From: Crambe crambe
Lineage: Eukaryota > Porifera > Demospongiae > Poecilosclerida > Crambeidae
DNA length: 64,000 nt
Direction of reading: 5' to 3'
NCBI GenBank assembly: GCA_963924555.1
Contig: OZ004583.1
Location: forward strand, 7,020,582 to 7,084,581
Part shown: positions 17,697-63,333 of the stretch, piece after piece
How positions within the stretch are numbered: the stretch's first letter is position 1
Layout of the letters: each line of letters opens with the position of its first letter
Notes under the pieces: generated by a model
The model's database searches: none
Seen by the model: only the letters and a program-made list of their open reading frames with translations
Told to the model about the DNA's origin: nothing
Made by a program: the position numbers and the translations under genes

Positions 17697-17699
17697 TAT

Positions 17700-18456: not shown

Positions 18457-18706
18457 GCTAGCTGCGCTGATAAAATTGCATCGTGTTGTTGCTAGAGCTA
18501 TTGTCTTCTGAAGAGCTAAACAATGGTATGTATCAGTGTGGTATACACAATAGTTTATTTTTAATATATCAGGTCCCTTCGCCTTTTCACCTATTATATT
18601 CCAGTCCAATTTTCATCTTTTTTGTGACAGAAATTGTGGATTGTAAGTTTTGGTTAGCTAGATTATCTGCATGCAGTCACTCATGCTATGTCTCTCATAT
18701 CTCCAG

Positions 18707-21345
18707 CTCTTCCCATGCTTTTCCTTTTTGCTCCTTCAAATGGAACTTTCTGTCCTGGAAGAGTCACACTCACTTGTCATGGCATTGAAACACCTAGTCT
18801 GACTTGGGCAATTAATGGCAGTGATTTTGCAGTATTCTCTGACTATAATCCTATGCAACCTTTACCACTGAATCTGACCCTTATTAATCCGAGCCATCTT
18901 ACATCTGGTGTGCAAGTGCAGGTTAACAGTGTTAATCCTGATGAAAACAATCTCTCTTATAACGTATCTTCCACATTGATTGGTGATGCATCTCTTCTAA
19001 GAGGGTCGATCATAGACTGTAGACGTCTTCCATTTAAGAGTAACACAATAAGTATTGCTAATGTCAGAGGTAGGTATAGCTATGCAGCTGCTGTTGGAGC
19101 AATGACATTATGTAGCTAGCTATAATGATTATTTGCTTGGCTCAATGGACTCAACAATTCCATATCCAACTCCATGAAGTGTATGTGTCATTCTATTTAT
19201 TGCAGATTCCCCTGTTTCACCTTTTTACACTAACTGCTCTGATCTTTTTGGAGGCATGATATGTCTCGGATGGTCCCCTGCCTTCACTTCTCTACATGCT
19301 GTAGAACTTTATCATGTAGTAGTGAGCCCCACCCCCTCCTCCTGTCTCAGTGACCAGCAAGTGAGACCCAGTGAGAACTACACCTGCTCTGGGCTGGTCC
19401 CAGGTGTATGCTACACCTTCATGATAAGTGCTGTAAATTGTGGAAACCAGGAAGGGGGAAGATCAACTTTCAGAACATCAGTTGCACATAGTAAGACAGA
19501 TAATTTTTCGTTTAATGCCCAATAAATTAAACTGTAGTAATGAATTCACTGTTCATGCAACTGAAAGCATGGGAATGAACGGTGGCATTATTGCTAAATT
19601 TAATATTATACATGTGTTTCGCTGTGCTTTTCATCTTTTGGAATTTTGCATAGCTAACTATAATTTTGATATTGTTGCAGTTTTTGGGGAAAAAAATAAT
19701 AATTATGATAGCTAGGATTTGTAGCTATAGGCCTTAAATGGAAAATGTAGCTAGCTATAATGAATTGTAAAACTTCCTGCAGGATCTCCTATTACTAGCA
19801 TCACTGCAATATATGATGAGGACTCCATCCTTAGTGAAATTGAAGTTAAATGGAATAGTAGTATACTGGTAAGCTGCGCTACATGATAGCTACGTGCAGA
19901 AGCTATCGTTTCATGATGACATTGTTATATACTATAGGAAGATATCATGAATGACCCCTGTTTAGATGGTGCGTTAATCAACTACACATTAGTAATTATC
20001 ACAGAAGATTCATCAGGTGGGAGACTTGACATCCCAGTGGAACCAAGCAACTGTAATGTAGCCATGCTCTGTTCCACATCCTTTCTCCTACCATCGCAAC
20101 AAGTCAACTTTTATAACATCCACTTCAATATCAACAATGACACACAAATCTTACAATCTTTCTCCTACCAGCATACATTGTGTGAGTAATTAGGTGGAGG
20201 AACCATGGAATCAAGGGCGTATCAAGCTGCGAAGCGGCGAGAGGGTATGCAACTAGTGTAGACAGCGAAATGTAAATTGTAAAGTGTTACTATATTTAGC
20301 TACAGTTTGCTGCAGTAAACAGACATATGTGGGCAGAGTTAGAGCCGGCCTACCATATGCTAGGCTATTTTTAGTAACATTTTACACTATGCCGTCTATG
20401 TATAGAGCATTGGCAGTTGCATGCCCTCTTGCCGCTTCACAGCTCGACCTTGATGGAATGTATGTGACATTGTGACAGTAGGTTTTAGATAAGGTTGAGC
20501 GGCTGCATAAAGAGTTTTAATATAGCTAGCTAAGTAATGTTGTTGTCCTTTAGCTAGCTAAATTTTGTCGTTGATGATTGTATGTTGTGGCTGTTTTACA
20601 GCTGGCTTCTCTTATCAAGCACTGAATTACTCGATATCTTTCATCAGTGATAGGATAATATATGTCTTTTGCACTTCACCTTTTGAAAGTATCGAAAACT
20701 GCTTCATTCAATTCAGCCTCCATCCTGATTACACAAATCTGAGTTCACCTATTAGAGTACCACAGTCCACTCACTTTCTCATTACAAATGCCACGGTATC
20801 TTTAATGGATACATTGTACTATCAAGCCTCAATAACAAACTCTTCACTGAAGATTATCGTGAGATCAAGTTATGTGTATGCAACAGTTAAAACTGATAAC
20901 ACTGCGGGGAATGTAACAGACACACTGATCACAACTATCACTTCTGAAATTCCCAAATCTGGTGATTTTGTAACTTTGAAAAGTTATCAATTGGGACTAC
21001 TGGTGGCTGTACTACTGGGTCTAGCAACAGTTTTCCTCATGATAATTATTGTATTACTTTGTAAAGGTAATTCTTAAGTGTGTCGTAATAATTTCCCCCT
21101 TTTGACAATTGTTATTGTTAGTTGGTAGGTCCAAGAAATACACTCCTGAAAATCAGCTCCCTCTTCAGAAAGATTTGGATCAAGACACTCCTAACATAAC
21201 TAAAGTTGAAAAGTGTGTCATTGATTCAGACTCAGCAATGTATGAAGAAATCAATCAGAGCAGACCCACAAGGAATGTGAATGAAGATTTCGAACTGACT
21301 TCAAATTATGCCTATCAAGAATCAAAGTTGAAGTCGTCAAACTGA
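18707..21345 (+). CDS. Receptor copy E: single-pass Ig/FN3 receptor with YEEI tail
   Basis: Intact plus-strand paralog in divergent orientation to copy C. Exons with fully consistent phases: Ig 18707-19069 (NGTFCPGRVTLTCHG), FN3-1 19206-19490, FN3-2a 19783-19868, FN3-2b 19938-20181, FN3-3 plus one membrane helix 20602-21066 (LGLLVAVLLGLATVFLMIII), tail 21122-21345 ending in TGA. The signal-peptide exon was not identified; an exon ending at a GTATGT donor near 18,523 is one candidate. The tail of about 70 residues has AMYEEINQ and NYAYQE. YEEI is the classic Src-family SH2-binding consensus when phosphorylated, so a role in tyrosine-kinase signalling is inferred. Unlike copies A-D there are no TM2/TM3 or YSxL modules. 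The stop lies only 180 bp before the KDM7 start codon. Confidence 0.75.
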
Positions 21346-41106: not shown

Positions 41107-41384
41107 TACCAAAAGTCATTCTGGCCTTTCTTTCAAATCAATCACATAAAATTAATGTATAATGAGCAATGATAGGTACTCATAGTTATAATTACAAGGA
41201 AAAAAGTTATGAATAATTAATAACTTCTGTAGCGTGCTGAAATGGCTCAGTGCCAGAATGGCTGATTTAACCCCTAGAGACACGACAGCGGAAATGCGTA
41301 TTTCTAAATAACGCACACCTATATATAAACATGCGCGCGCTTATTGAGCTTGCATTTAGCTATTGTAGGCATCATAGATAATCT

Positions 41385-44300
41385 ATGCTGGCATGCAGTT
41401 TATGTCATTGTGGACTTTAGCTACAGTAAGCCATTCTGGCATGCATTTACTGCTTAGATATTATTGTAGACTTAAGCCGTAGCTTGTCAGCCATTCTGGC
41501 GCTGTGCAGTATAGACTTTATCTATACAGATGAGCTATATTGCATGTGGCACACAGTTATAGCTACAGCTAGTATGCCATGCATTGATTATTGTAGGCTT
41601 TAGTGAGTCATTCTGGCACACTCAAATCTTATTGTAGATTAGCTATAGCTAATTATATTCTTGCACTATGATGCAGTTATTATTGTAGCTAGATTTTTAG
41701 CTAGCTATTCCGACATGCATTTATTAAACTACAGTTACGTGAGCCATTCTGGTATGCCTTTAAAGAGCTATAGCTAGCTATATAGGGGACGCAGCTACTA
41801 TTAACTCTATATAATAGTGATCCATTCTGGCACACAGTTATCATTATCATATAGTGAGCCATTCTACATGCAGTTAATTAGATTCTTATAGTGAGATAAT
41901 CTGGAACACAGTATAGACTCTTAATATAGTGAGCCGAGCCATGCACAGTAGTTATTATTATAGACTCTATAATAGTGAGCCATTCTGGCATGCAGTTATT
42001 AATATAGACTCTATAGAGTGAGCCATTCTGGCATGCAGTTATCATTATAGACTCTATAGAGTGAGCCATTCTGGCATGCAGTTATCATTATAGACTCTAC
42101 AGCTATAGCGAGCCATTCTGGCATGCAGTTATTAATATAGACTCTATAGAGTGAGCCATTCGGGCATGCAGTTATTATTATGGACTCTATATAGTGAGCC
42201 ATTCTGGCATGCAGTTATTAATATAGACTCTATAGAGTGAGCCATTCTGGCACGCAGTTATTATATAGATTCTATCGAGTGAGCCATTCTGGCATGCAGT
42301 TATTATTATAGACTCTATAGAGTGAGACATTCTGGCATGCAGTTATTAATATAGACTCTGTATAGTGAGCCATTCTGGCATGCAGTTATTAATATAGACT
42401 CTATATAGAGAGCCATTCTGGCATGCATTTATCATTATAGACTCTATAGAGTGAGCCATTCTGGCATGCAGTTATTAATATAGACTCTATAGAGTGAGCC
42501 ATTCTGGCACGCAGTTATTATATAGATTCTATTGAGTGAGCCATTCTGGCATGCAGTTATTATTATAGACTCTATAGAGAGACATTCTGGCATGCAGTTA
42601 TTAATATAGACTCTATATAGAGAGCCATTCTGGCATGCAGTTATCATTATAGACTCTATAGAGTGAGCCATTCTGGCATGCAGTTATCATTATAGACTCT
42701 ATAGAGTGAGCCATTCTGGCATGCAGTTATCATTATAGACTCTATAGAGTGAGCCATTCTGGCATGCAGTTATCATTATGGACTCTATAGAGTGAGCCAT
42801 TCGGGCATGCAGTTATTAATATAGACTCTATAGAGTAAGCCATTCTGGCACGCAGTTATCATTATAGACTCTATAGAGTGAGCCATTCGGGCATGCAGTT
42901 ATTAATATAGACTCTATCGAGTGAGACATTCTGGCATGCAGTTATTATTATAGACTCTATAGAGTGAGACATTCTGGCATGCAGTTATTATAGACTCTGT
43001 ATAGTGAGGCATTCTGGCACGCAGTTATTCTATATAGAGAGCCATTCTGGCATGCAGTTATTGATATAGACTCTATAGAGTGAGCCATTCTGGCATGCAG
43101 TTATTAATATAGACTCTATATAGAGAGCCATTCTGGCATGCAGTTATCATTATAGACTCTATAGAGTGAGCCATTCTGGCATGCAGTTATCATTATGGAC
43201 TCTATAGAGTGAGCCATTCGGGCATGCAGTTATTATTATAGACTCTATATAGAGAGCCATTCTGGCACGCAGTTATTAATATAGACTCTATAGAGTGAGC
43301 CATTCTGGCATGCAGTTATTAATATAGACTCTATAGAGTAAGCCATTCTGGCACGCAGTTATCATTATAGACTCTATAGAGTGAGCCATTCGGGCATGCA
43401 GTTATTAATATAGACTCTATAGAGTGAGCCATTCTGGCACGCAGTTATTATAGACTCTATAGAGTGAGACATTCTGGCATGCAGTTATTAATATAGACTC
43501 TATAGAGTGAGCCATTCTGGCATGCAGTTATTAATATAGACTCTATATAGAGAGCCATTCTGGCATGCATTTATCATTATAGACTCTATAGAGTGAGACA
43601 TTCTGGCATGCAGTTATTAATATAGACTCTGTATAGTGAGCCATTCTGGCATGCAGTTATTAATATAGACTCTATATAGAGAGCCATTCTGGCATGCATT
43701 TATCATTATAGACTCTATAGAGTGAGCCATTCTGGCATGCAGTTATTAATATAGACTCTATATAGAGAGCCATTCTGGCATGCATTTATCATTATAGACT
43801 CTATAGAGTGAGCCATTCTGGCACGCAGTTATTATTATAGACTCTATAGAGTGAGACATTCTGGCATGCAGTTATTAATATAGACTCTATAGAGTGAGCC
43901 ATTCTGGCATGCAGTTATTAATATAGACTCTATATAGAGAGCCATTCTGGCATGCATTTATCATTATAGACTCTATAGAGTGAGCCATTCTGGCATGCAG
44001 TTATTAATATAGACTCTATAGAGTGAGCCATTCTGGCACGCAGTTATTATATAGATTCTATTGAGTGAGCCATTCTGGTATGCAGTTATTATTATAGACT
44101 CTATAGAGTGAGACATTCTGGCATGCAGTTATCATTATAGACTCTATAGAGTGAGCCATTCTGGCATGCAGTTATCATTATAGACTCTATAGAGTGAGCC
44201 ATTCTGGCATGCAGTTATTATTATAGACTCTATCGAGTGAGACATTCTGGCATGCAGTTATTAATATAGACTCTGTATAGTGAGGCATTCTGGCACGCAG

Positions 44301-47300
44301 TTATTATATATAGAGAGCCATTCTGGCATGCAGTTATTGATATAGACTCTATAGAGTGAGCCATTCTGGCATGCAGTTATTAATATAGACTCTATATAGA
44401 GAGCCATTCTGGCATGCAGTTATCATTATAGACTCTATAGAGTGAGCCATTCTGGCATGCAGTTATCATTATAGACTCTATAGAGTGAGCCATTCTGGCA
44501 TGCAGTTATCATTATAGACTCTATAGAGTGAGCCATTCTGGCATGCAGTTATCATTATGGACTCTATAGAATGAGCCATTCGGGCATGCAGTTATTATTA
44601 TAGACTCTATAGAGTGAGCCATTCTGGCATGCAGTTATTATTATAGACTCTATATAGAGAGCCATTCTGGCACGCAGTTATTAATATAGACTCTATAGAG
44701 TGAGCCATTCTGGCATGCAGTTATTAATATAGACTCTATAGAGTAAGCCATTCTGGCACGCAGTTATCATTATAGACTCTATAGAGTAAGCCATTCTGGC
44801 ACGCAGTTATCATTATAGACTCTATATAGAGAGCCATTCTGGCACGCAGTTATTAATATAGACTCTATAGAGTGAGCCATTCTGGCACGCAGTTATTATT
44901 ATCGACTCTATATAGAGAGCCATTCTGGCACGCAGTTATTAATATAGACTCTATAGAGTGAGCCATTCTGGCATGCAGTTATTAATATAGACTCTATAGA
45001 GTGAGCCATTCTGGCATGCAGTTATTAATATAGACTCTATAGAGTAAGCCATTCTGGCACGCAGTTATCATTATAGACTCTATAGAGTAAGCCATTCTGG
45101 CACGCAGTTATCATTATAGACTCTATATAGAGAGCCATTCTGGCACGCAGTTATTAATATAGACTCTATAGAGTGAGCCATTCTGGCATGCAGTTATAGA
45201 CTCTATAGAGTGAGCCATTCTGGCACGCAGTTATTATTATCGACTCTATATAGAGAGCCATTCTGGCACGCAGTTATTAATATAGACTCTATAGAGTGAG
45301 CCATTCTGGCATGCAGTTATAGACTCTATAGAGTGAGCCATTCTGGCACGCAGTTATTATTATCGACTCTATATAGAGAGCCATTCTGGCACGCAGTTAT
45401 TAATATAGACTCTATAGAGTGAGCCATTCTGGCATGCAGTTATTATCATAGACTCTATAGAGTGAGCCATTCTGGCATGCAGTTATTATTATCGACTCTA
45501 TATAGAGAGCCATTCTGGCACGCAGTTATTAATATAGACTCTATAGAGTGAGCCATTCTGGCATGCAGTTATAGACTCTATATAGAGAGCCATTCTGGCA
45601 TGCAGATATCATTATAGACTCTCCATTCTGGCATGCAGTTATTAATATAGACTCTATATAGAGAGCCATTCTGGCATGCAGTTATCATTATAGACTCTAT
45701 AGAGTGAGCCATTCTGGCATGCAGTTATCATTATAGACTCTATAGAGTGAGCCATTCGGGCATGCAGTTATTATTATAGACTCTATCGAGTGAGCCATTC
45801 TGGCATGCAGTTATTAATATAGACTCTATAGAGTGAGACATTCTGGCATGCAGTTATTAATATAGACTCTGTATAGTGAGGCATTCTGGCACGCAGTTAT
45901 TCTATATAGAGAGCCATTCTGGCTTGCAGTTATTGATATAGACTCTATAGAGTGAGCCATTCTGGCATGCAGTTATTAATATAGACTCTATATAGAGAGC
46001 CATTCTGGCATGCAGTTATCATTATAGACTCTATAGAGTGAGCCATTCTGGCATGCAGTTATCATTATAGACTCTATAGAGTGAGCCATTCTGGCATGCA
46101 GTTATCATTATAGACTCTATAGAGTGAGCCATTCGGGCATGCAGTTATCATTATGGACTCTATAGAGTGAGCCATTCTGGCACGCAGTTATTAATATAGA
46201 CTCTATAGAGTGAGCCATTCTGGCATGCAGTTATTAATATAGACTCTATATAGAGAGCCATTCTGGCACGCAGTTATTAATATAGACTCTATAGAGTGAG
46301 CCATTCTGGCACGCAGTTATTAATATAGACTCTATATAGAGAGCCATTCTGGCACGCAGTTATTAATATAGACTCTATAGAGTGAGCCATTCTGGCACGC
46401 AGTTATTAATATAGACTCTATAGAGTGAGCCATTCTGGCATGCAGTTATTAATATAGACTCTATAGAGTAAGCCATTCTGGCACGCAGTTATCATTATAG
46501 ACTCTATAGAGTGAGCCATTCTGGCATGCAGTTATTAATATAGACTCTATAGAGTAAGCCATTCTGGCACGCAGTTATCATTATAGACTCTATAGAGTAA
46601 GCCATTCTGGCACGCAGTTATCATTATAGACTCTATATAGAGAGCCATTCTGGCACGCAGTTATTAATATAGACTCTATAGAGTGAGCCATTCTGGCACG
46701 CAGTTATTATTATCGACTCTATATAGAGAGCCATTCTGGCACGCAGTTATTAATATAGACTCTATAGAGTGAGCCATTCTGGCATGCAGTTATAGACTCT
46801 ATATAGAGAGCCATTCTGGCATGCAGTTATTATTATAGACTCTATAGAGTGAGCCATTCTGGCATGCAGTTATTAATATAGACTCTATAGAGTGAGCCAT
46901 TCTGGCATGCAGTTATTAATATAGACTCTATAGAGTAAGCCATTCTGGCACGCAGTTATCATTATAGACTCTATAGAGTGAGCCATTCTGGCATGCAGTT
47001 ATCATTATAGACTCTATAGAGTGAGCCGTTCGGGCATGCAGTTATTATTATAGACTCTATAGAGTGAGCCATTCTGGCACGCAGTTATTATTATCGACTC
47101 TATATAGAGAGCCATTCTGGCACGCAGTTATTAATATAGACTCTATAGAGTGAGCCATTCTGGCATGCAGTTATAGACTCTATATAGAGAGCCATTCTGG
47201 CATGCAGTTATTATCATAGACTCTATAGAGTGAGCCATTCTGGCATGCAGTTATTATTATCGACTCTATATAGAGAGCCATTCTGGCACGCAGTTATTAA

Positions 47301-49665
47301 TATAGACTCTATAGAGTGAGCCATTCTGGCATGCAGTTATAGACTCTATATAGAGAGCCATTCTGGCATGCAGTTATTAATATAGACTCTATAGAGTAAG
47401 CCATTCTGGCACGCAGTTATCATTATAGACTCTATAGAGTGAGCCATTCTGGCATGCAGTTATCATTATAGACTCTATAGAGTGAGCCATTCTGGCATGC
47501 AGTTATCATTATAGACTCTATAGAGTGAGCCATTCGGGCATGCAGTTATTATTAAAGACTCTATAGAGTGAGCCATTCTGGCACGCAGTTATTATTATCG
47601 ACTCTATATAGAGAGCCATTCTGGCACGCAGTTATTAATATAGACTCTATAGAGTGAGCCATTCTGGCATGCAGTTATAGACTCTATATAGAGAGCCATT
47701 CTGGCATGCAGTTATTATCATAGACTCTATAGAGTGAGCCATTCTGGCATGCAGTTATTATTATCGACTCTATATAGAGAGCCATTCTGGCACGCAGTTA
47801 TTAATATAGACTCTATAGAGTGAGCCATTCTGGCATGCAGTTATAGACTCTATATAGAGAGCCATTCTGGCATGCAGTTATCATTATAGACTCTATAGAG
47901 TGAGCCATTCTGGCATGCAGTTATTAATATAGACTCTATATAGAGAGCCATTCTGGCATGCAGTTATCATTATAGACTCTATAGAGTGAGCCATTTTGGC
48001 ACGCAGTTATTATTATCGACTCTATATAAAGAGCCATTCTGGCACGCAGTTATTAATATAGACTCTATAGAGTGAGCCATTCTGGCATGCAGTTATAGAC
48101 TCTATATAGAGAGCCATTCTGGCACACAGTTATTATTATGGACTCTATAGAGTGAGCCATTCTGGCATGCAGTTATAGACTCTATATAGAGAGCCATTCT
48201 GGCATGCAGTTATTAATATAGACTCTGTAGAGTGAGCCATTCTGGCATGCAGTTATAGACTCTATATAGAGAGCCATTCTGGCATGCAGTTATTAATATA
48301 GACTCTATATAGAGAGCCATTCTGGCATGCAGTTATTATTATGGACTCTATAGAGTGAGCCATTCTGGCATGCAGTTATTATTATAGACTCTATATAGAG
48401 TGAGCCATTCTGGCATGCAGTTATAGACTCTATATAGAGAGCCATTCTGGCATGCAGTTATTAATATAGACTCTATATAGAGAGCCATTCTGGCATGCAG
48501 TTATTATTATGGACTCTATAGAGTGAGCCATTCTGGCATGCAGTTATTATTATAGACTCTATAGAGTGAGCCATTCTGGCATGCAGTTATAGACTCTATA
48601 TAGAGAGCCATTCTGGCATGCAGTTATTAATATAGACTCTATATAGAGAGCCATTCTGGCATGCAGTTATTATTATGGACTCTATAGAGTGAGCCATTCT
48701 GGCATGCAGTTATTATTATAGACTCTATAGAGTGAGCCATTCTGGCATGCAGTTATAGACTCTATATAGAGAGCCATTCTGGCATGCAGTTATTAATATA
48801 GACTCTATATAGAGAGCCATTCTGGCATGCAGTTATTATTATGGACTCTATAGAGTGAGCCATTCTGGCATGCAGTTATAGACTCTATATAGAGAGCCAT
48901 TCTGGCATGCAGTTATTAATATAGACTCTGTAGAGTGAGCCATTCTGGCATGCAGTTATAGACTCTATATAGAGAGCCATTCTGGCATGCAGTTATTAAT
49001 ATAGACTCTATATAGAGAGCCATTCTGGCATGCAGTTATTATTATGGACTCTATAGAGTGAGCCATTCTGGCATGCAGTTATAGACTCTATATAGAGAGC
49101 CATTCTGGCATGCAGTTATTATTATGGACTCTATAGAGTGAGCCATTCTGGCATGCAGTTATTATTATAGACTCTATAGAGTGAGCCATTCTGGCATGCA
49201 GTTATAGACTCTATATAGAGAGCCATTCTGGCATGCAGTTATTAATATAGACTCTATATAGAGAGCCATTCTGGCATGCAGTTATAGACTCTATATAGAG
49301 AGCCATTCTGGCATGCAGTTATTAATATAGACTCTATATAGAGAGCCATTCTGGCATGCAGTTATTATTATGGACTCTATAGAGTGAGCCATTCTGGCAT
49401 GCAGTTATTATTATAGACTCTATAGAGTGAGCCATTCTGGCATGCAGTTATAGACTCTATATAGAGAGCCATTCTGGCATGCAGTTATTAATATAGACTC
49501 TATATAGAGAGCCATTCTGGCATGCAGTTATAGACTCTATATAGAGAGCCATTCTGGCATGCAGTTATTAATATAGACTCTATATAGAGAGCCATTCTGG
49601 CATGCAGTTATTATTATGGACTCTATAGAGTGAGCCATTCTGGCACGCAGTTATTATTATAGACT
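41385..49665. repeat. Satellite array, about 43-bp monomers (left block)
   Basis: Head-to-tail units of the form GAGCCATTCTGGCATGCAGT + TATTAATATAGACTCTATAG + AGT, 43 bp. A 37-bp variant lacks six bases of the TATTAA part, and rarer variants are about 31-41 bp. Units carry the 12-bp palindrome ACTCTATAGAGT and GCATGC. Variant positions (CATGC/CACGC, TTAATA/TCATTA, AGAGTGA/ATAGAGA) recur in blocks, which indicates higher-order organisation. Monomers from 41,385 to about 41,950 are strongly degenerate, as expected for an array edge. Open frames reading MAHSIESIMITACQNG on the minus strand are satellite translations. Confidence 0.95.
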
Positions 49666-52404
49666 CAGTGGAGTAGGAATAGAAAATTTATTGGGGGGGC
49701 AGGAACAATAAGTTAATCACAGTAATAATTATAGCTAATAGCAACAAATATCTAAAAATGTCCAAATTTAATCAATCCTCCTGTCATTACATTGAATAAA
49801 TTCTTTGGCAATATCACATAAATTAAGATTTTCGGTTTTTTCTTTGTGAATATGGAGTAACATGCAGTGATTAAGTCGTGACTGAGTCATTGAATTTCTT
49901 AAGTATGTTTTGATACGTTTGAGTGCTGAAAAATTACGCTCTGCACTAGCAGTGGTAACAGGAATTGTCATATATATTTTCAGTAACTTATGAACCTCTG
50001 TAATAAGACTCTTGAGAGCTGGCTGCTTATTGAAGATATCACATATGGTTCGAATTCTTGTAACTTCTTTTATAGGAATTCCATCCAAAGGAACAGAATT
50101 AATTGCATCAGGGAGAAGCTTTAGATGGAGCTTTAACTTTTCCATATCAATATCATTTTTGTACATCTCCTCAGATAAGACTACTGACTTACCATTGGCA
50201 CTATTGATCAAAAGAGCCTCAACACTTCTTACAAATAAAAAATTTGCTTGTGTAAACCTCTTTTCCAGATCTCCAATTATATTGTCAATTACTTCAAAGA
50301 AGTCCTTTCTGTAGAGCTCTTCGATAGATTGAAAAATATGCTCAGCTACACCATCATTTAGTCTGCTAGGAAGATGTCTTTGTCTGGGTAACACTGGTGG
50401 ATCACATCTGTCTTTGGCCTCTTCCTTCACCGACTCAAAAAATTCTTTGAATTTTTCATCCTTTCTGAGTTTTGTAAGGGCCTAAACAGTGACTTTGACA
50501 GCAACATAACAATCATCAACATTGGTATTCACTCCTTGGAGTGTTACTGATAACTGCTCTGTTATACTAAAGATCAAGAAAGCAAGTTTCAACCCAAAAT
50601 ATGTGTGAAACTTGTCCATTAGAGCCAATAGACCACAAGCTCTCCTGGAGCAATCATCAGAGCCATGTGAAGATTCTTCTAGTGTGATATGAAGTGATTC
50701 ATAATTATCAAGGATAGCTCGTATTGCCCCAGTCCGGACAGTCCACCTTGTTGGGCAAAATGTACGAATCCCTGATTTAGATGAATCATCAAGCTCTTTT
50801 TGGACCCTTTCAAAAACCACTTGTCTCTTCGGTGAATATTTTATTAACTGAACAACCTCCATAGCAAAATTCAAAGCTTCTTTCATACTTTTGCTATCCC
50901 TAGCTATGTCTTGTAGACACAAATTCACACAGTGTGCAAGACAATGTACGGTAATGGCAGCATGATTACCATTTTCAAATCTTTTACCAACTCCACTTAC
51001 ATGACCCTGGAAATTTCGTGCCCCGTCATACCCTTGTCCCCGGCAATGATCAAAAGGAATGCCTAAAGAAATCAAGCAATTTTTGAGTGATGAATAGATG
51101 CATTCAGCTGTAGTTGCATCAAGCTCAACTAAGCCAAAGAAATCTTCATATATTTCATAACTTTCTGATACCCATCTCAGAGTTACAACAAGTTGTTCAC
51201 GATTGGAAATATCTCTAGTTTCATCTGCTAGGAGTGAAAACCATCTTTGTGAAAGCAAAGCATTAACTAGGGATCGTAATACTTTGAGAGCCATTAACTT
51301 GATCATTTCATTAATTATCTCTGGAGACTGATACTCGTTGGTCTCTACCCAGGCAACTTCATCAAGTACTTGCTGTAGCATTATGGTTAAATTAGAACCA
51401 CCAGCGTGGTCATTTCTAATAGAGAGACCTTGCCGCAGTAAATATCGTAATGCTTTAAGCTGTTTCATCAGACTATTTCTTCTGGAAACTTGAATGCCAT
51501 TAAATTGACTTTGTAGCATTCTACTTACTGGGATTGAAGTTGCAGATACATGGGCTGATATTGCATCCCTGTGTGCTTGAGAAAGCTCATGTTCTTTGAA
51601 TCGCAGAGTGGCCTTTTTCCAATTAGAAAAGCCAGTGGTGACAAAAGCTGGTTCAGATTTCGTGCTCATGACTGTAACATGCAATTTGTTTGCTTTTTTA
51701 CAGTAGAAGCAGTATGCCTTCAAATTTTTTGAGCAAAAATGAACCCAAGGGAATAATTTATACCAGGATGGCATGAAGTGCCTCCTTTGTTTATTTTTTC
51801 CCGTCCCAAATACTTTTGTCGACCTTTTTAGCTAGTAAGGCCAAATCAGTTGGTTGATTGATCACTCCTTTAGTACAACATAATCCATCACAAATCTCAA
51901 GCTCGGTACTACTTGGAGGGGTATTAGAAACACCACCATCATTATCACTTTTTTCTTCTAGTGAGGCTTTACTGTGAGATTCTTCATTTCCTAGAATAAG
52001 TATTAAGAACTAAGTCCTACGTATGACTGCTAGGCCCTTTAGTAAAAAAAAAAAAGAAAAAAAAAAAAGCTATTCATATGAACCATATATAAGTTACCTT
52101 GAGATGGCACTAAAGTGAAGTAAGTCTTGATGCTTTGGCTACTGTTAATTTTTCTCTTCTTCACTGCAGAATTCATGTCTCTTGACAGAATCTTGAGCAC
52201 ATGCATTAGATAGCCAAGCAGCAGTAAAATTGCTGACATCACACTGCAATGACAGCATTCATGCATGTAATTGCTTGGTGCTATATTTTTACTTTCAATA
52301 TACTCAAGTTAGCTGTTCATATTATTATTGGGGGGCAGTGCCCCTCCATCTATAGTATTGGGGGGCAGTGGCCCCCCCTGCCCCCCCCTATTCCTACTCC
52401 ACTG
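49666..52404. mobile_element. hAT transposon inserted in the satellite
   Basis: Perfect 17-bp terminal inverted repeats: CAGTGGAGTAGGAATAG at 49666-49682 and CTATTCCTACTCCACTG at 52388-52404. The 2,739-bp element carries a hAT-type transposase on the minus strand. Left flank TATAGACT plus right flank CTATAGAG rebuild an uninterrupted satellite monomer with no 8-bp target duplication, which is unusual for hAT. Confidence 0.88.
49768..52176 (-). pseudogene. hAT transposase (ZMYM1-like), broken
   Basis: Exon 1 52176-52098 (MNSAVKKRKINSSQSIKTYF) and the main exon from 51990 to 49768. Recognisable parts are a TTF-type zinc-finger region (MPSWYKLFPW ... CSKNLKAYCFYCKKA ... HELSQAHRDA), the RNase H-like core (SLLADETRDISNREQL, DHCRGQGYDGARNFQG, HCLAHCVNLCLQD) and the C-terminal hAT dimerisation region (IPVTTASAERNFSALKRIKT). 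There are two lesions: a one-base shift in an A-run near 51,802, and a single in-frame TAG at 50482-50484 (after VAVKVTV). The remainder is open and similar to intact relatives, so the element is fairly young. Confidence 0.85.
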
Positions 52405-54190
52405 CTATAGAGTGAGACATTCTGGCATGCAGTTATTAATATAGACTCTGTATAGTGAGGCATTCTGGCACGCAGTTATTCTATATAGAGAGCCATTCTG
52501 GCATGCAGTTATTGATATAGACTCTATAGAGTGAGCCATTCTGGCATGCAGTTATTAATATAGACTCTATATAGAGAGCCATTCTGGCATGCAGTTATCA
52601 TTATAGACTCTATAGAGTGAGCCATTCTGGCATGCAGTTATCATTATAGACTCTATAGAGTGAGCCATTCTGGCATGCAGTTATCATTATAGACTCTATA
52701 GAGTGAGCCATTCGGGCATGCAGTTATCATTATAGACTCTATAGAGTGAGCCATTCGGGCATGCAGTTATCATTATAGACTCTATAGAGTGAGCCATTCG
52801 GGCATGCAGTTATCATTATAGACTCTATAGAGTGAGCCATTCTGGCATGCAGTTATTAATATAGACTCTATAGAGTGAGCCATTCTGGCATGCAGTTATC
52901 ATTATAGACTCTATAGAGTGAGCCATTCTTGCATGCAGTTATCATTATAGACTCTATAGAGTGAGCCATTCTGGCATGCAGTTATCATTATAGACTCTAT
53001 AGAGTGAGCCATTCTGGCATGCAGTTATCATTATAGACTCTATAGAGTGAGCCATTCTGGCATGCAGTTATCATTATAGACTCTATAGAGTGAGCCATTC
53101 GGGCATGCAGTTATCATTATAGACTCTATAGAGTGAGCCATTCGGGCATGCAGTTATTATTATAGACTCTATCGAGTGAGCCATTCTGGCATGCAGTTAT
53201 TAATATAGACTCTATAGAGTGAGCCATTCTGGCATGCAGTTATTAATATAGACTCTATAGAGTGAGCCATTCTGGCATGCAGTTATAGACTCTATATAGA
53301 GAGCCATTCTGGCACGCAGTTATTAATATAGACTCTATAGAGTGAGCCATTCTGGCATGCAGTTATAGACTCTATATAGAGAGCCATTCTGGCATGCAGT
53401 TATTATCATAGCTAGACTCTATAGAGTGAGCCATTCTGGCATGCAGTTATTAATATAGACTCTATAGAGTGAGCCATTCTGGCATGTAGTTATTATTATA
53501 GACTCTATATAGAGAGCCATTCTGGCACGCAGTTATTATTATGGACTCTATAGAGTGAGCCATTCTGGCACGCAGTTATTATATAGATTCTATTGAGTGA
53601 GCCATTCTGGCATGCAGTTATTATTATAGACTCTATAGAGTGAGACATTCTGGCATGTAGTTATTAATATAGACTCTGTATAGTGAGGCATTCTGGCACG
53701 CAGTTATTCTATATAGAGAGCCATTCTGGCATGCAGTTATTGATATAGACTCTATAGAGTGAGCCATTCTGGCATGCAGTTATTAATATAGACTCTATAT
53801 AGAGAGCCATTCTGGCATGCAGTTATTATTATATACTCTATAGAGTGAGACATTCTGGCATGTAGTTATTAATATAGACTCTGTATAGTGAGGCATTCTG
53901 GCACGCAGTTATTCTATATAGAGAGCCATTCTGGCATGCAGTTATTGATATAGACTCTATAGAGTGAGACATTCTGGCATGTAGTTATTAATATAGACTC
54001 TGTATAGTGAGGCATTCTGGCACGCAGTTATTCTATATAGAGAGCCATTCTGGCATGCAGTTATTAATATAGACTCTATATAGAGAGCCATTCTGGCATG
54101 CAGTTATTATGGCATGCAGTTATTGACTCCATATAGTGAGCATGCAGTTACTATTAGAGACTCTATATAGAGTGAGCCATTCTGGTATGC
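52405..54190. repeat. Satellite array, about 43-bp monomers (right block)
   Basis: Same monomer as the left block. A rare variant block (GTATAGTGAGGCATTCTGG followed by a short unit CGCAGTTATTCTATATAGAG) recurs near 52,450, 53,680, 53,880 and 54,000. It is also in the left block near 42,995, 44,275 and 45,870. The array becomes irregular after 54,100 and ends near 54,190. Confidence 0.95.
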
Positions 54191-55320: not shown

Positions 55321-55502
55321 CAGTGGTGGATCCAGGATTTTCAAAAAGGGGGGGCACACAGGCTGAAATTTTTTTTTACCCGGCTTTGGCTAACCAGCTA
55401 ACTTGCAAACTGTCATGCATCACTGTAATTCTTATAAGTGGCCACACCAAAAAGGGGGGGGGGGGCATGTGCCTGAAATGCCCACTCCTAGATCCACCAC
55501 TG
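55321..55502. mobile_element. 182-bp hAT-like miniature element
   Basis: Ends CAGTGGTGGATCCAGG and CCTAGATCCACCACTG are inverted repeats with one mismatch. The element has no coding capacity and contains AAAGGGGGGG-type runs near both ends. Flanking direct repeats are GTATA (5 bp); a typical hAT would give 8 bp. Confidence 0.75.
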
Positions 55503-56157: not shown

Positions 56158-58672
56158 ATGTTAATTGGAACTCAAAAGAAGTGCTACTTAATATATTCCA
56201 CTTCACTGCAAACTCATTATGCATTCATGTGCTACTATGCTACGTATCACACAAAAAATGTGTCGACTTTCTTAATTACTTATACAGAAGATGATTGGAT
56301 GACAAATGAAGTCTATGCTGCAATTGTTAACTCTTTGAAATATCCAAACCATGAATCAAGCATTGCATTTACAAAAGCAAACAGGAAAAAATTGTTTAAA
56401 GGGGGATGCTCTTCCTTTCCTTTCTATATGATTGGGCAGAAAAACAACAAGGATGTGCTATACCGTATAATTTATGCAAGAAATGAGAGCATAACTAAAA
56501 TAGCACTAACACATGAGGAGGCAAAGAAAGTAATACAAGAGTTGCATTGTAAAGATAATGAAGCATGTAAGCCAGGAGGCATTAACAGCCTTGTGAGTTT
56601 ATTCACAATGGAATATTACTATAAAGGGATCAGAATGTTAGTGAGTGATATTCTCTCAAAGTGTAAAGGTTCATGCAAAATGATGAAATGTTTAAAAACT
56701 ATGCCTATGCCTCCCAAGCCAATCAGAACCTCTTATGTTATGGAAGAAATTCAGTGTGATCTAATATATATTACTACAAATAAGGGGTTGCCTCATTCAC
56801 AAAGTCATGATTATAAGTATGTCCTTACTGTGAAAGATTGCTTCAGTAAATTTTGTTGGCTGATTCCACTGAAATCAAAAGAAGCACTGCCTATTTCTAA
56901 ACATTTAAAGTATATATTTGATGAATATGGAGCACCGAGATTCCTTCATACAGATAATGGGAAAGAGTTTTTAAATAGTAATATGAACGAATTGTGTGCA
57001 CAAAAAGGTATAACCATGAAAAAGGGACGCCCGTACCATCCATAATCCCAAGGTCAAGTAGAAAATCTTAACAGAAGAGTTTAATTAACTTTGGCCCATT
57101 ACTTGCTAAATTACAGAGAATCTGATCGAAGTGATATCTGGCCGTTTATCTTGAAGACTGTATCCAATCATATCAATAACACATGGCATCATACAATTCA
57201 AAATACTCCATTTAATGTCTTTATGGCAAGACAAGGTTCTGTTCAAACTCCATCACTGCCTGAAGACTTTTGTATCCCTGAAGACTACATGTACATGTTT
57301 GCATCTCCAGAGGATGATTTCTCATTGGAAATTGATTCAATTGAAAAACTAAAACTTCACACCAACTCCAATAATTTATCATATATCAGTGATAAAGAAA
57401 AGCTTGCTTTGGCTGAAAATTTTTCAATCAGTGTGAGACTTAAGGCTTATAATGCCACTGAAAAAATGATTTTTAAGAATCAAAGGGCTCGCATGAAGAA
57501 AATCATTATCCCTAAATTAAATAAAGGGGATGAAGTAATGTTCAGAAACCCTTTCCACGTGTCGTCCCTCTCAACAACCCTTAATGTGTGTGGTACAGTG
57601 AAAAAAGCACTAAGCCGAAATGTTTATGAAGTCGAGTTTGATGGAAGGAAAATTATGCTATTTGGATCTGAGCTGGTCCTACGGAATAAATCTGCTGCAA
57701 TATCACTTCCTCCAAAGTCTTCTAACAGTGAAGATAATCTGATATTATCCAAGTCATACTTATTACAACAGCTGACAGAATTTGTGGATAAGTTCCGAAG
57801 TAACAATGTTGATATTGATGACGAAACAAAAGGTTTTCAATCCACAATAGAGATTGAAGATGTGCTGAAAGAAGCCAATATAACTCTTAATGAAGCCACC
57901 TTGCAGACAGATCTACTCAATCTCTTTTACTTTTATTTGGATTGCCTGTTTCTTTCTAATATTGTGGGAGCACAGCACTCATCAATCAAGACACGTTGCA
58001 TGGAGTATGCTGTAGTCTGTGATCGTGCTTTCTGCCGATTTAACTTTTCATATAAAATTAGTGGTATCCACTTCTGGGAAGCTTTGAGGTCGAACTCGTT
58101 AGAGGCCTTTGCGGACTCCATAAAGGAAAATCAATGGCCAGTTCCAGCATTGCACACATGCAGTGAATGCATAAGCAATGGATGTCATCATGCTTGCTGC
58201 AGAAGATGGTATGTCAGAATAGGTCTTTCAAATGATCTCCTTCAAAAAGATGAAAAGGGTAGTCTCATTATAAGTGAGAGCATGCAAGCTGCATGTATGA
58301 GTGATTCAAGTGACTCATCAGACACCAAGAAAAATGAACCCGTCAAGAAAGAGCTGGAAAGATTGAAGAGGAAGAGAACCACCATTAGCTCTGAGACTGC
58401 CAAAGAGTTGAAAAAAATGAAGTGGAAATTGAAATATCAAGCTGCTTGTATGAGTGGCTCAAACACCAAATCCAACGAAAAAACAGAACCCACCAAAAAA
58501 GAAATAATTGAGCTTGAGAGATTGAAGAGGAAGAGAATCACCATCAGTTCTGAGCCTGCCAAAGAGATGAAAAAATTGAAGTGCAAAACAAAGTACAACG
58601 AGGATGACTCTCTATTAACAAATTTACACTTGCTAGCTTCTGTTGCTGTATCACCTACTATCATTGAAACTG
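56158..58672 (+). pseudogene. Retrovirus-type DD35E integrase exon of composite gene, two in-frame stops
   Basis: One long frame from ATG 56158. The N-terminal zinc-binding region is atypical (H130 ... CKDNEACKPGG ... CKGSC). The catalytic core has D201 (EEIQCDLIYI), D266 (FLHTDNGKEF) and E302 (GQVENLNR), an exact D-x35-E spacing. Two TAA stops in the same frame, at 57043-57045 and 57082-57084, bracket the glutamate. The C-terminal part (KLNKGDEVMF ... GTVKKAL ... VYEVEFDGRK) resembles the GPY/F chromodomain-like end of such integrases. After it follow about 300 residues with a Cys-rich patch and two Lys-rich direct repeats (ELERLKRKRTTISSE and ELERLKRKRITISSE), up to a phase-1 donor at 58673. 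Related to Ginger/KRBA2-type integrases. Confidence 0.75.
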
Positions 58673-58749
58673 GTAGGTAGCTAGCTACTTTATTTATGAG
58701 CTGGTATACATTTTGATTCTATGTGTACTGTTGATGCATTATAATGCAG

Positions 58750-60986
58750 AAAAAAGCATGCCAGATAAAGAAGTGATGGAAGTGACAATTTCGTCTACCA
58801 GCAAGAAAAACAAGGTAAAATTAATCATTGTGCTCATTAATTGATTTTTAATTAATTAAGCCATTTATTTTTCACGCAGTTACTGAACCTTAAATCAATC
58901 CCTGGTGGAATACGTAACAAAAATAACAATTGTTGGCTTATTTCTATAATACAAATGATAAATACAACCAACTTGCATCAATTACTCAGTGGTAAGTTTC
59001 ATAGTTATAGCTATTAGTATGTTATTCATTCTTCTTGATAACCAGGACTGAGGTGTACAAATGAGATCCAGAATCAGTACTGCCTCATTCAAAAGTCATT
59101 ACAACAAAAGAGACCAGTGGACATCAAGATCTTGAAGGTAAATAGCAAGATATATACACTTCAATGAAATTATTATATCAATCAATCTTTATGTGCATTT
59201 TCTCAGTATCACCTAGGAAAAGTTCGAGGATGCTTGGCTGCTGACACTCAACAGGATGCAGCTGAAGGACTATTGCATTTGATGAACAGTTTACTAGAAA
59301 ATTTACCAGTGAGTATCTAGCAATAGATAGCTATGTGTGTCTAAAATTTCACTATAATTATGTAGGAATCCAAGAAAGATGACATATGGACATTTAGCTA
59401 CTCCTCTCAAGTTTATTGCGGCTTATGCAAAAATAATGGAACTGGCAAGGTATATCTTAATTGGTGGGGTAATTTACCTCATAATCACTTAATTATGACA
59501 CTGACATGAGTTTGTCATCCACTTATTAATTTTTTTAAGATGCATATTAACATATTATAGTTCAGGGATGCTCAAACAATGAAGCTTTCCATTGCTTACT
59601 GTCATCTTGGAAGTAGTCGCTCAGAGATAAAATTGGATGACCTATTAATGTCAAGTCACGAAATTGGATGCATATCAAAGGCTCCAAAGGAGAGGTATAC
59701 CATTGCATTTGCAGTATGATGATGTCAATAATGATTATATGAATACATTCATTCCCAATAGATTATGTACTTACTGTAATAAAGCTGGTGAAGTCCACAT
59801 AACATCCAATGTGCTGTCAGCACCCAAATACCTATTTATTGGATGCAATCGTGAAGTGTTGCACAAAAGAATGTCAGGTCGTACAGCAAGACGATCAAGT
59901 AGACCTGTCATTTTGCAAAGGTGCAATTACATTGCAATTATATTCATCAATTAAAAATAATGATTAATTTATTTCAAATTTAGGAATATTCATATCAATA
60001 TACATGATGGAGATACCATTAACTACAAACTACATGCTTTCATTGTAAATTCATTAATGCTCTTACAGGGGCGCCGGAACCGGCCCGGCAGACCCGGCAG
60101 CTGCCGGACCAATATTGAAAAAAAAAATCAGTTACTAAAGACTAAAGTAATCTTATAATGTTGTAAATCTGAGCTAAGTCGCAGTGTCGCAGCTTGGATC
60201 CAGTTCTACAGTACAGCGCTTAATTCAGAGCGATCTCTAATTAACGCACACCAATTCGCTGCCACGCCCATAATGATTGAAAATAGGGCTGAAAAGAAAA
60301 GGAAAAAAAGGACAGTGGATTTAGCTAGCTAGCTAACTAAAAAATAAAAGCTTAGCTAAGCAGGCAAAATCATGCTTCTTAGGCCATAGCTACAGTGGAA
60401 TAAGTTACAACGTATATACCATTGGACAGGCACAATTGAACCATTTTTATGACTCTATAAACATTTTTACAAGAATAAAGCAGGACTTTAATGTAGAGTG
60501 GGGATGAGCACCGAATGATTAATCAGCATTGCAAAAAAAATTGTTTTCAGGCTTCAAATAATATGGCTTGCAATAAAATCTCTAGCTAACTCATGCATGG
60601 TTTTTGCCTGACCAATCAAAATTTGCTTCCTCCACCTCTGTCTTAAACTTATGCTTAGCTTCATGTATATAACATACTAGGTGCATCATGGGAGTACAGT
60701 ATCACATGGACATTGTAAGAAATAATTAAAAAATATAATTATAATAATTATAATGAATTCTCTGCATGCAGATAGTATGTATGCACTCTATCAGAATGAC
60801 ATTCTGGTCCATTTTAATGATGACCTAGTATGTCAAGTTGATATGGACACAATAGATACTGCTTATACCCACGTAAGTTCTAAATTAAGCTGATGCAGGT
60901 ACACTGCTATACTTCATATAATATAACTTTACTTCTGTAAACAGAGAAATGTGGTACTAATTCTGTACAAAACCTCACAAATCCCA
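58750..60986 (+). CDS. Ubiquitin-specific-protease-like (C19) domain exons of composite gene
   Basis: Exons 58750-58814, 58880-58991, 59046-59137, 59207-59308, 59366-59449, 59561-59920, 59984 to about 60065, 60772-60872, 60945-60986. The Cys box reads GGIRNKNNNCWLISIIQMI, matching the G-x-x-N-x-x-N-x-C pattern of USPs with the nucleophile Cys. The QQDAAEGLLHLMNSL box follows. A CxxC pair (LCTYCNKAGE) fits the USP zinc ribbon, and VHFNDDLVCQV ... LILYKT fits the C-terminal box. Two breaks are seen: a one-base frame change inside 59561-59920 (between SSHEIGC and LQYDDVNNDY), and loss of the expected catalytic-His box, where the exon from 59984 runs into transposon-like sequence at 60066. The domain is thus recognisable but may be inactive. 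It would act on ubiquitin or a related modifier. Confidence 0.7.
60066..60130. mobile_element. hAT-type terminus (CAGGGGCGCCGGAACCGG) inside the USP-like region
   Basis: CAGGGGCGCCGGAACCGGCC is a typical hAT end and interrupts the coding frame right after NSLMLL. The opposite terminus was not found before the next exon at 60772, so the extent of the insertion is unknown. Confidence 0.55.
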
Positions 60987-61039
60987 GTAAGTAGAGCTAT
61001 AATTTTTATATTAATTTTTAGTAACAATAAATTGTTCAG

Positions 61040-62841
61040 GTATATGCTTTGGAACCAGCTGATAAGCATAATCAGGTATGAATTGAATTAATTATGATTA
61101 GTATTATATACACAATACACATTATTTCTAGGTGTACAGAGGACTGAAGTTACCACAAAACCTCAAGGCAAGTTAATTATAAAGCAAATTTTATTTGATA
61201 ATTATTATAGAATAATATTGTTAGATCGGCAACCAAGCAGTAGTGTCTGAAAGGCTGAATTCTAGCTTGCAGTATCTTGATCCCAATCAATGGCTCAATG
61301 ATATAGTAATCATGATCATGATAGTTACCATTGTGCACTACTGTGTTATTATTCACAGATTATCAATGAATACTTCGAACTGATAGCCAGAAACAGTGAC
61401 AGTGTAAGTTAATCTCAGTCAATGGACAGATTCTCAAAATGTAATCTGTAATTCTCGAAATGTACAGATCGCAATTGCAAACTCATACTTTTCAACATCA
61501 CTCACTTATAAAGGGTGTAATGAAGCCAAAAAATATTGTCATGTGGTATATAGCTAATTAGATATTTTGGTGTAGTTATAACTATTATGAATCTAATCTC
61601 TAGAAAAATTTTTTTCAACAAAATGCAATACTTATACCATGGAACATTACTGATTCCCACTGGATGCTGATGGTAAAAGCTATTAGATATAATAATTTAT
61701 TATATCAGCTAATAATTATGATTAAGGTCATAAAACCAAAAGAGAAAGTAATTATGTGTTTGGATTCATGCCCCTCATATTATGATGAAATTGAGAATAT
61801 GCTATGGTGAGATAGCTATTAGCTGACATCTTGATGATTATAATAGTAATACTATCCATATATAGGCATTACATTGTTGAGTATGGGAGGGATATCCATT
61901 TCTCTATCAGCCAAGCCCAGTGGAAGAGAGTGAATTCACAGGTATTTCATTATTATAGCATTAAAGCAACATACCAAACATTTTTTTTTAGATGCCATTG
62001 CAGACAAATTCCAATGACTGTGGTGTATTTACATGCATAGTAAGAAAGCAAAATTGGTTGTAACTTATAAATAAAAAATAATCATTATTAAAAAGGCTGC
62101 TAGGTACATTGCATCTGAAAGTGACATAGCTTTTTGTCAGGTATGTATTAGTCAGCTATTATTAGCCAATTAATAGTTTATTTTACTTGAAGGCTGATAT
62201 TCCATATCTGAGAAGAGTAATGAAATTTGAGCTATCAAATATGGAACTTTTGCCGATGGAACAGTCACATAATAATGAAAGATCAAGTGCAGGTATACTG
62301 TCTTATTGTTGCTTCTTAAAAGTACTTGTATTTGTATTCGCATTCACTTGATTACTTGATCGTTTACTATAATAATCTGCTTTCACTTCCATGAAATTAA
62401 GCACCAGCAGAGACCTGATCACCCACTGGTTTTAAGATTTCAAAAGTTTTAGCAATAATGATCAAGGTATCAAGTGAATGCAAATAGAGTACTACAGCTA
62501 GCTACGTATTGTATAATTTAGGTATGAAAAACACACCTTCACACTGCCAGATGTAAATGAACAGGAAAAGGAGACTGCTAGTATGTATTTTTTATTGAAA
62601 CTGAATCAGATGTAAAAAATTTCATTCATGTACGTACGTAGATGAAACTTGTGCTGATGGCAAACAGAGTGATAAAGGAAACCGGCTGGATGATGATTAT
62701 CTACTTCCGGACTTTAGCGAACAGAGTAAAATTTGTTTAGTGGATAAGGATGACATTTTCACTTTCGACAGGAGGAGCATTGAAAAAATATGGATGGACT
62801 ATGTGAAATCATACAGTCATTCTTGTAAAAGGAAAGAGTGA
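61040..62841 (+). CDS. Ulp1/SENP-like (C48) cysteine protease exons of composite gene
   Basis: Continues the USP-like exons with short, mostly phase-0 exons: 61040-61075, 61132-61167 (GC donor), 61225-61305, 61359-61403, 61468-61545, 61604-61672, 61727-61806, 61866-61941, 61992-62039, 62096-62140, 62193-62292, then 62522-62579 and 62642-62841 (TGA). Recognisable parts: substrate-side motif QYLDPNQWLNDI, catalytic His in DSHWMLMVI, Asp in CLDSCPSYY, and Gln plus Cys in PLQTNSNDCGVFTC, which is the full C48 set in the usual order. No stop interrupts this part. The last two exons are joined with less certainty because a small inverted-repeat element (62,319-62,494) lies between them and phases disagree. 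Such proteases cleave SUMO- or ubiquitin-like modifiers and also occur in several large DNA transposons. Confidence 0.75.
62319..62494. mobile_element. MITE-like inverted repeat in composite gene
   Basis: AGTACTTGTATTTGTATTCG and TTCACTTGAT at the left pair with ATCAAGTGAATGCAAATAGA and GTACT at the right. It is non-coding, and its position explains the unclear splice join between the last exons. Confidence 0.6.
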
Positions 62842-63333
62842 GTGCTGCTAAGGAGATTTAGCACCTTATTACTATAGCAATACTTCTTATATCAAGAAAC
62901 GTGATCTTCCCCAGAAAATTTGTAAGAGCTGTGTTAAAGTCAAGAGAGGTACACAGTTAAAAATGGGGTGTCACTTTTACACCTTTTTTGGTGCTATAAT
63001 TGACATTAAGCCTAAGCACCACAGTGGGTGTAACATGCCACCTCATGGGTGTTAAGTTAAAGGTGTTCCAGAACACTAAAGCATGTTAATATAAACTAGA
63101 AAAGGAGTATCCAAAACACCTCAAGATAATGCTAAAATTAAGGTGCACCTGTGGTATGTACTGATAACATTCCTCCATATAACATCATTACCATGGAAAT
63201 ATGAAGGTATACAAGACAATAAGTAACATTGCAATGTTCAATAATAAGGTATGTACACAAAAGATAGAAATGACACATAATTATGTACATACATAAAAGA
63301 TAGAAGTTACACATATGTACGTAATGGCAATGT
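62842..63333. other. Region between convergent genes, no exon recognised
   Basis: Contains short repeated GGTGT/ACACC motifs around 62,960-63,170 and a direct repeat of TACATACATAAAAGATAGAA-like sequence near 63,250-63,310. No open frame of interest. Confidence 0.4.

Follow-up and report, generated by a model that had tools for sequence, protein, structure and literature searches.

A probable composite integrase-protease gene in Crambe crambe

The window, by which we mean the whole 64,000-nucleotide stretch of Crambe crambe contig OZ004583.1 that was analysed (C5:7020582-7084581), contains on its plus strand a predicted many-exon gene in which a retrovirus-type integrase is followed by a USP-type and then by a Ulp1-type protease domain. 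Positions are in window numbering unless a contig (C13, C18, C6 and so on) is named, and genome searches covered 143 Mb in 119 contigs. The first model of the gene, 56158-62841, comprises 26 exons (4470 nucleotides) with GT-AG introns of 50-120 bp plus one GC-AG intron; intron 9 is 636 bp long in this copy because a 575-bp repeat has been inserted, and the copy of the gene on contig C13 lacks the insert. The C13 version consists of 29 exons (4827 nucleotides), is open through 1608 codons and has 28 introns, all GT-AG but for one GC-AG.

The integrase core lies in the plus-strand frame from 56113 (PF00665, E=1.1e-14 in a Pfam profile search) and matches PFV integrase in the PDB (E=3.3e-17). The spliced middle part yields a UCH/USP domain (PF00443, E=3.3e-25, profile positions 2-246 of 254), and after it comes a Ulp1 domain (PF02902, E=4.3e-19) whose best PDB match is SENP2 (E=1e-20). 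In the open C13 copy the integrase residues are D201, D266 and E302, with 35 residues between the last two; those of the USP are Cys878, His1119 and Asn1135/Asp1136, with a QQD box from 943; and those of Ulp1 are His1278, Asp1295, Gln1338 and Cys1344, catalytic roles that we assign from knowledge of the families. The USP Cys, QQD and His boxes stand in the expected order inside the UCH profile match, and the Ulp1 residues fall within the Ulp1 match. The original prediction, made from the letters of the window, had named the USP-type Cys and QQD boxes and the Ulp1 His/Asp/Gln/Cys set, and the profiles bear out both; its D-x35-E integrase triad is exact in C13, but it made no mention of the TAA codons at 57043 and 57082, on either side of E302 in the window. 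The integrase, USP and Ulp1 domains are real, above chance, and parts of one transposon gene.

From the C13 frame that is open over 29 exons, and from the single predicted proteins of relatives (see below), we infer that all exons belong to one transcript. An alternative is that one transposon carries an integrase gene and, next to it, a distinct gene for USP and Ulp1. The 855-codon open frame that exon 1 alone provides in C13 would suit this, as would the 77-bp intron between the two halves and the fact that the single transcript is deduced from sequence. We consider that arrangement quite improbable, given that the frame continues from exon 1 into exon 2, the intron between them having GT-AG ends in both the window and C13, and that integrase, Josephin-like box and Ulp1 occur in one predicted protein of relatives.

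Other parts of the protein are less readily classified. Exon 1 encodes an HxC..C..CxHxCC domain whose His and Cys residues are invariant across 11 aligned sequences, and whose pattern is matched in 26 of 67 related proteins (many of the non-matching ones are short). An H2C2 zinc finger, a trait of Ginger1 elements, scores below the cut-off (PF09337, E=0.081), and by eye one of its His positions is Cys in aligned relatives. As regards the GPY/F and YPYY motifs of Ginger1, the SH3-like end aligns with the G-x-Y of relatives and reads N-V-Y here, and a YPYY motif was not recognised by eye, without a reference alignment. For the C-terminal tail the profiles give no clear family, the RTC4-like match (E=0.081) being below the cut-off.

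A complete element on C13 and its kin in the genome

A genome DNA search finds the C13 copy colinear with the window unit at 99.7% identity over 4469 bp and 99.3% over 2312 bp. Within 56158-62841, 6095 bases can be aligned between the two and 16 of them are substituted, so that the copies are recent. The C13 element is complete: it measures 18,733 bp between the outer ends of 113-bp terminal inverted repeats (TIRs) that are 100% identical, TGTAGCGTGCTG...CAGCACGCTACA (TGTAG...CTACA), and is flanked on both sides by CCCTC, a 5-bp target duplication. With the window TIR as query, the genome gives 30 matches, including five nearby inverted pairs: the C13 element itself, and pairs on C6 (8.4 kb, TACGTG), C1 (8.8 kb, CAAGT), C5 at 3.24 Mb (8.7 kb, CCACT) and C9 (4.0 kb, CCTGT), so that the duplication is of 5 bp in four of the five. 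The shorter C6 element, with the same termini, holds a 379-bp piece of the gene. Two of three miniature loci examined are the same insertion in inverted duplicates (ACCTC), and relics of the element occur on C5 and C16.

Contig C18 contains a decayed copy of this first lineage, in pieces and mostly at 89-93% identity, with its right terminus at 84%. It also contains a second, diverged lineage (C18:3925-3941 kb), which is 50-60% identical (52-55% in its integrase pieces), has stops and gaps, and keeps the order integrase, USP Cys box (NKSNDCWLIAVVQMI), USP His box (VHHGSTVSHGH) and Ulp1 start (QWLND). A search turned up no TIRs for the second lineage; beyond its satellites there are inverted matches, at distances of about 9 and 5 kb. 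The second lineage adjoins the C18 copy of the first and has inverted satellites of its own. Among 128 matches listed for the integrase open reading frame (ORF), the first ten are these loci and the rest have E values of 4e-10 or worse. A genome search with the Ulp1 profile returned eight matches but missed this element, whose short exons are presumably the reason; the Josephin profile returned three, all on C21.

Five open frames of at least 80 codons lie between the C13 TIRs. Three correspond to the integrase exon, a USP exon and a 105-amino-acid ORF that spans the last two exons and the intron between them (L012:656-970), for which a Pfam search gave no match; the remaining two are on the minus strand, one in the satellite and one antisense to exon 1. 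A Maverick/Polinton or long terminal repeat (LTR) retroelement fragment could account for an integrase core and a Ulp1-like protease, but no long ORF for polymerase B or capsid is present between these TIRs (genes of short exons could escape an ORF listing), and, as regards Maverick, only one of the five duplications is of 6 bp. This reading is scarcely credible. Of the kinships that the original prediction had named, Ginger1 stands as the closest described group and Maverick/Polinton is not supported.

The same prediction had wavered between a new transposon lineage with two deconjugating enzymes and a host fusion with a captured integrase. The shared termini, the target duplications and the other loci favour the former: copies with common termini exist elsewhere in the genome, and the three domains are combined again on C13 and at two loci on C18, loci whose absence would have counted against the prediction. 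In favour of a host origin, in which USP and Ulp1 domains were fused to a captured integrase and a few segmental duplicates followed, one could point to the 28 introns in C13, compared with 0-4 in Ginger1 in the part of its description available to us (PMC2836005), and to the few full copies. We nevertheless regard it as very improbable, since the termini are inverted and flanked by target duplications, shorter elements end in the same way (one of them with its piece of the gene), and there are decayed copies plus a diverged second lineage. Because C13 carries a complete TIR element and a second lineage keeps the domain order, we treat the element as a transposon, and the window very probably holds a large, Ginger1-related TIR DNA transposon in damaged form, with a single many-exon composite transposase gene.

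Condition of the window copy

The in-frame TAA at 57043 closes the integrase frame upstream of the E302 codon (57061), so that E302 lies beyond the first stop; with the second TAA at 57082, the frame reopens at 57085. Exon 62522-62580 is one base shorter than its C13 counterpart; in this region C13 and C18 can be aligned gap-free over 90 bases. What looks like a stop at 62839-62841 coincides in part with a GT splice donor (62838-62839), past which the C13 frame continues through four further exons to 1608 amino acids; the window keeps one of these. Homology with C13 and C18 ends at 62951, beyond which those two stay colinear, and no right TIR was found in the rest of the window or in the next 7.4 kb beyond it. 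Two stops, a frameshift, the loss of the 3' end, the 575-bp intron insert and other insertions render the window copy inactive. The span 56158-62841 that had been predicted for the gene agrees with the 26-exon model, but the element begins at 41228 and what was read as a stop at 62841 coincides in part with the splice donor. The first model also included a 16-nucleotide exon, 62413-62428, which we reject as spurious: it compensates for the one-base-short exon 62522-62580 and is unneeded by the comparison of C13 with C18.

Table 1. Features of the transposon copy in the window
Feature	Position	Strand	Remarks
Left terminal inverted repeat	41228-41345	+	Begins TGTAGCGTGCTG; 94% identity to C13 TIRs
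Subterminal 43-bp satellite array	41428-49654	+	187 motif hits
hAT-transposase-like ORFs, 237 and 449 amino acids	49768-51831	-	Interrupt the satellite; label by eye
Remainder of satellite array	52414-54123	+	Same 43-bp consensus
Exon 1	56158-58672	+	N-terminal/Zn-finger-like region, DDE integrase core, SH3-like end, HxC..C..CxHxCC domain, basic linker
Exon 2	58750-58814	+	Linker
Exons 3-12, USP (peptidase C19)	58880-60986	+	Cys box in exon 3, QQD in exon 5, His box in exons 10-11
575-bp repeat in intron 9, outside the gene	60066-60640		TCTTA at both flanks; missing from C13
Exons 13-23, Ulp1 (peptidase C48)	61040-62292	+	PF02902, SENP2
C-terminal exon	62522-62580	+	Short by one base against C13; frameshift
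C-terminal exon	62642-62837	+	Ends at GT donor; comparison with C13
Last exon kept in the window	62915-62948	+	Three more in C13
Final base common with C13 and C18	62951		Right satellite and right TIR not here

By eye, the two minus-strand ORFs, from an element that interrupts the satellite, resemble a hAT transposase. With 40 of 84 candidates scored, the 575-bp repeat has 36 further matching places, 79-99% identical; judged by its ends, it is presumably a hAT-like non-autonomous element. A 182-bp element with 17-bp inverted ends (CAGTGGTGGATC) occupies 55321-55502, and the C18 copy reads through this site without it. Elsewhere in the window, ORFs on the minus and plus strands, at 129-2050 and 16978-21077, look Ig/FN3-like by eye and are perhaps of a receptor family; they repeat each other (16978-17427 and 18658-19119).

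Satellite arrays inside the termini

Another feature of these elements is that arrays of a 43-bp satellite span kilobases inside the termini. In C13 the array is in '+' orientation on the left and '-' on the right; the window has about 10 kb of it (41428-54123), and the same 43-bp consensus is found in both C13 arms and both window arrays. A 37-bp pattern of the satellite occurs in the genome 327 times in forward and 212 times in reverse orientation (control, 0 and 0). Among 100 listed places of this pattern (539 in total), 91 are near a match to the window TIR and two beside the C18 TIR, and seven are near no TIR that was found: C6 at 6.72 Mb, C14, C2, and C18 at 3938 kb. Furthermore, the satellite unit and the TIR have 13 bp in common in inverted sense (TGCCAGAATGGCT), and a match as long was obtained in 0 of 5000 shuffles. 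A satellite inside a transposon is a possible route from transposon to satellite DNA, and a 13-bp motif that is present both in TIRs and in kilobases of satellite offers a handle on how transposons seed satellite DNA.

Relatives that pair the integrase with a Josephin-like protease

A collection of 5.8 billion proteins was searched, the full-length protein search scoring the 7999 candidates with most words in common, and 67 proteins were retrieved (P0001-P0067, P0010 being the window's own); 21 of them were scanned with Pfam and all 67 by residue patterns, with 10 alignment rows read with gaps. Precomputed Pfam annotation shows UCH in none of the 67, and no other integrase-UCH protein came to light, in a collection where intron-bearing genes are easily missed. 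A Josephin-type Cys box is present in 12 of the 67, and six of these (P0026, P0028, P0029, P0045, P0046 and P0047) also have a downstream Ulp1 Cys motif: in these six, integrase, Josephin-like box and Ulp1 occur in one predicted protein. Pfam places Josephin above its cut-off in P0028, below it in P0047 and not at all in the other four, where the Josephin-like call comes from the Cys box plus His and Asp seen by eye; Ulp1 is above the cut-off in five of the six, P0047 excepted. The Josephin-like box lies between the HxC..C..CxHxCC domain and Ulp1, which is the position of the USP in the C. crambe element. A search for relatives with both USP and Ulp1 gave two proteins, with Ulp1 only. Going by these predicted proteins, the possession of two deconjugating domains is not unique to this element.

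The integrase is 42-50% identical to those of P0001-3 and P0006, and less so to those of the other Josephin-like relatives. In a tree of 31 integrase cores, built without Ginger1 or Ginger2 references, the C13 element groups with P0001-3 and P0005-8 (a group of eight, support 98/99), in which P0001, P0002, P0003 and P0006 carry Josephin and the other three proteins are short; its place beside P0005-8 has support of 90/83. The Josephin+Ulp1 proteins fall in a separate group of 16 rows (99/99). The labels 'Josephin' and 'Josephin+Ulp1' need two and three changes on this tree, respectively, and therefore no single origin is demonstrated for either. Since the tree puts the element among Josephin-bearing relatives, the simplest reading is that a USP probably replaced a Josephin-type deubiquitinase (DUB) at the same place in this lineage.

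Selective constraint

Constraint was assessed by comparing C13 with the decayed C18 copy of the first lineage, using exon lists that include the spurious 16-nucleotide exon, which affects the last two codons of the ratio of nonsynonymous to synonymous substitution rates (dN/dS) and 16 bases of the Ulp1 exons. Mismatches are fewer in exons than in introns for exon 1 (90/2421 versus 61/867 in introns 1-23, p=1.4e-4), for the USP exons (16/626 versus 21/373, p=0.015) and for the Ulp1 exons (17/581 versus 37/470, p=3.7e-4). The dN/dS ratio is 0.34 overall, 0.15 in the integrase core, 0.28 in the middle part, 0.31 in the linker and 0.23 in Ulp1.

Several observations weigh against the interpretation of the element as a two-protease transposon. 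Concerning the element, the C6 pair has its 6-bp duplication, the third miniature locus has unclear flanks, only C13 is open among the four loci examined, the second lineage is decayed, and the C18 copy used for comparison has lost exons and has three stops among the compared codons. Concerning the proteases, the PDB matches of the USP domain (USP5, USP36 and USP12) are weak (best E=4.7e-5); the USP form was met in one genome only; no Ulp1 is seen in the predicted proteins of P0001-3 and P0006, the nearest of the Josephin relatives, where it may lie in later exons or may be absent; and dN/dS indicates no constraint on either the N-terminal part (0.83) or the USP (0.86, from 4 synonymous and 12 nonsynonymous changes, with 103 of 310 codons gapped). 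The support for constraint on the USP comes from the exon/intron contrast and from the boxes kept in the second lineage, not from dN/dS.

The USP ratio would fit a situation in which USP and Ulp1 are passengers or decaying cargo without a part in transposition, as would the variation of the protease among relatives, some matches showing none. However, the catalytic residues are kept in C13, the second lineage retains the USP Cys and His boxes, six relatives have Ulp1 along with a Josephin-like box, and both protease domains show the exon/intron contrast; we judge the passenger explanation unlikely.

A possible mechanism

Preferring, then, a part for both proteases in transposition, we hypothesize a cut-and-paste process in which the integrase part would bind the terminal repeats, cut there and insert the element with a 5-bp stagger; by analogy with the binding sites that the title of the Galileo paper reports in long TIRs, the satellite units with the same 13-bp motif are perhaps extra integrase binding sites. 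USP and Ulp1, being fused to the integrase, would be carried to the transposition complex, where the transposase itself, or nearby chromatin and repair factors, may lose their ubiquitin and SUMO to them. Removal of ubiquitin together with SUMO would oppose SUMO-targeted ubiquitination, and the complex might thereby escape both SUMO-dependent silencing and that ubiquitination. We tentatively put forward a superfamily-level lineage of integrase transposons in which a detagging module, a DUB of exchangeable class plus Ulp1, sits on the transposase and satellites serve as extra binding sites, the module countering SUMO-dependent silencing and SUMO-targeted ubiquitination at the transposition complex; as a whole this proposal is possible rather than probable.

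Why transposons carry enzymes that remove ubiquitin or SUMO is a question raised for Ginger1 in 2010 (PMC2836005) and for Helitrons in 2022 (PMC9741609). In the sections of those papers available to us, Bao et al. proposed an active role of Ulp1 or OTU through repair pathways (PMC2836005), and the VTD paper holds that a DUB activity is of advantage to Helitrons and can come from more than one class (PMC9741609). Here the class of DUB has apparently been exchanged while its place was kept, which suggests that both activities are needed together, and the relatives that pair the integrase with another ubiquitin protease hint that such elements gain by removing host protein tags when moving. The recent copies make a compact system in which single active-site mutations could test the role of the proteases.

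Comparison with known systems

No transposase combining integrase with USP, integrase with Josephin, or a DUB with Ulp1 was met among the titles and abstract openings listed in literature searches, Repbase and subscription journals aside. Close in architecture are the Josephin-like relatives described above (P0001-3, P0006, P0026, P0028, P0029 and P0045-47): the HxC..C..CxHxCC domain is common to most of them and six have the order DUB then Ulp1, as here, but with a Josephin-like protease instead of USP. A deubiquitinase is likewise fused to a transposition protein in a Trichomonas protein with Transposase_11 and peptidase C19 (PMC2836005) and in Helitrons with VTD and/or OTU, in which DUB classes stand side by side or in place of each other (PMC9741609); to judge from the portions of these papers that we could consult, both differ in having unrelated transposases and no Ulp1 partner. 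The foldback-like transposons Galileo and Tetris similarly have long inverted ends with tandem repeats or several binding sites, but, in the excerpts available, belong to other transposase superfamilies (PMC3688188, PMC4079207).

Ginger2/TDD elements resemble ours in duplication length, given as 4 or 5 bp in the accessible part of one source (PMC10045372), and in TGTNR termini and a DDE integrase (PMC2836005). They differ in that Ginger2, as far as the text available from the latter source goes, lacks GPY/F and YPYY, has 6-bp AT-rich targets and has no such protease pair; the flanks of our five TIR pairs are not of the AT-rich RTATAY type of Ginger2/TDD.

Ginger1 (Bao et al. 2010, PMC2836005), which we likewise know from part of its description, shares with the element a Gypsy-type DDE integrase as transposase, TGTNR termini (TGTAG here), TIRs whose range of 40-270 bp includes our 113 bp, a C-terminal Ulp1 in some families, and introns, one of them reported as GC-AG there too. 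The account of Ginger1 in those sections is of elements of about 2.6-7 kb with 4-bp duplications of CCGG type and either OTU or Ulp1 'but not both', and makes no mention of USP or Josephin. Our element, by contrast, has USP plus Ulp1, the USP being added and no OTU appearing in Pfam scans of the gene parts; its duplications are mostly of 5 bp instead of 4-bp CCGG or CCGT/ACGG; and it is 18.7 kb long, with inverted satellites and 28 introns. Because its duplications are not those of Ginger1 we do not file the element there; Ginger1 is nevertheless the closest described group, and the element looks to work like one.

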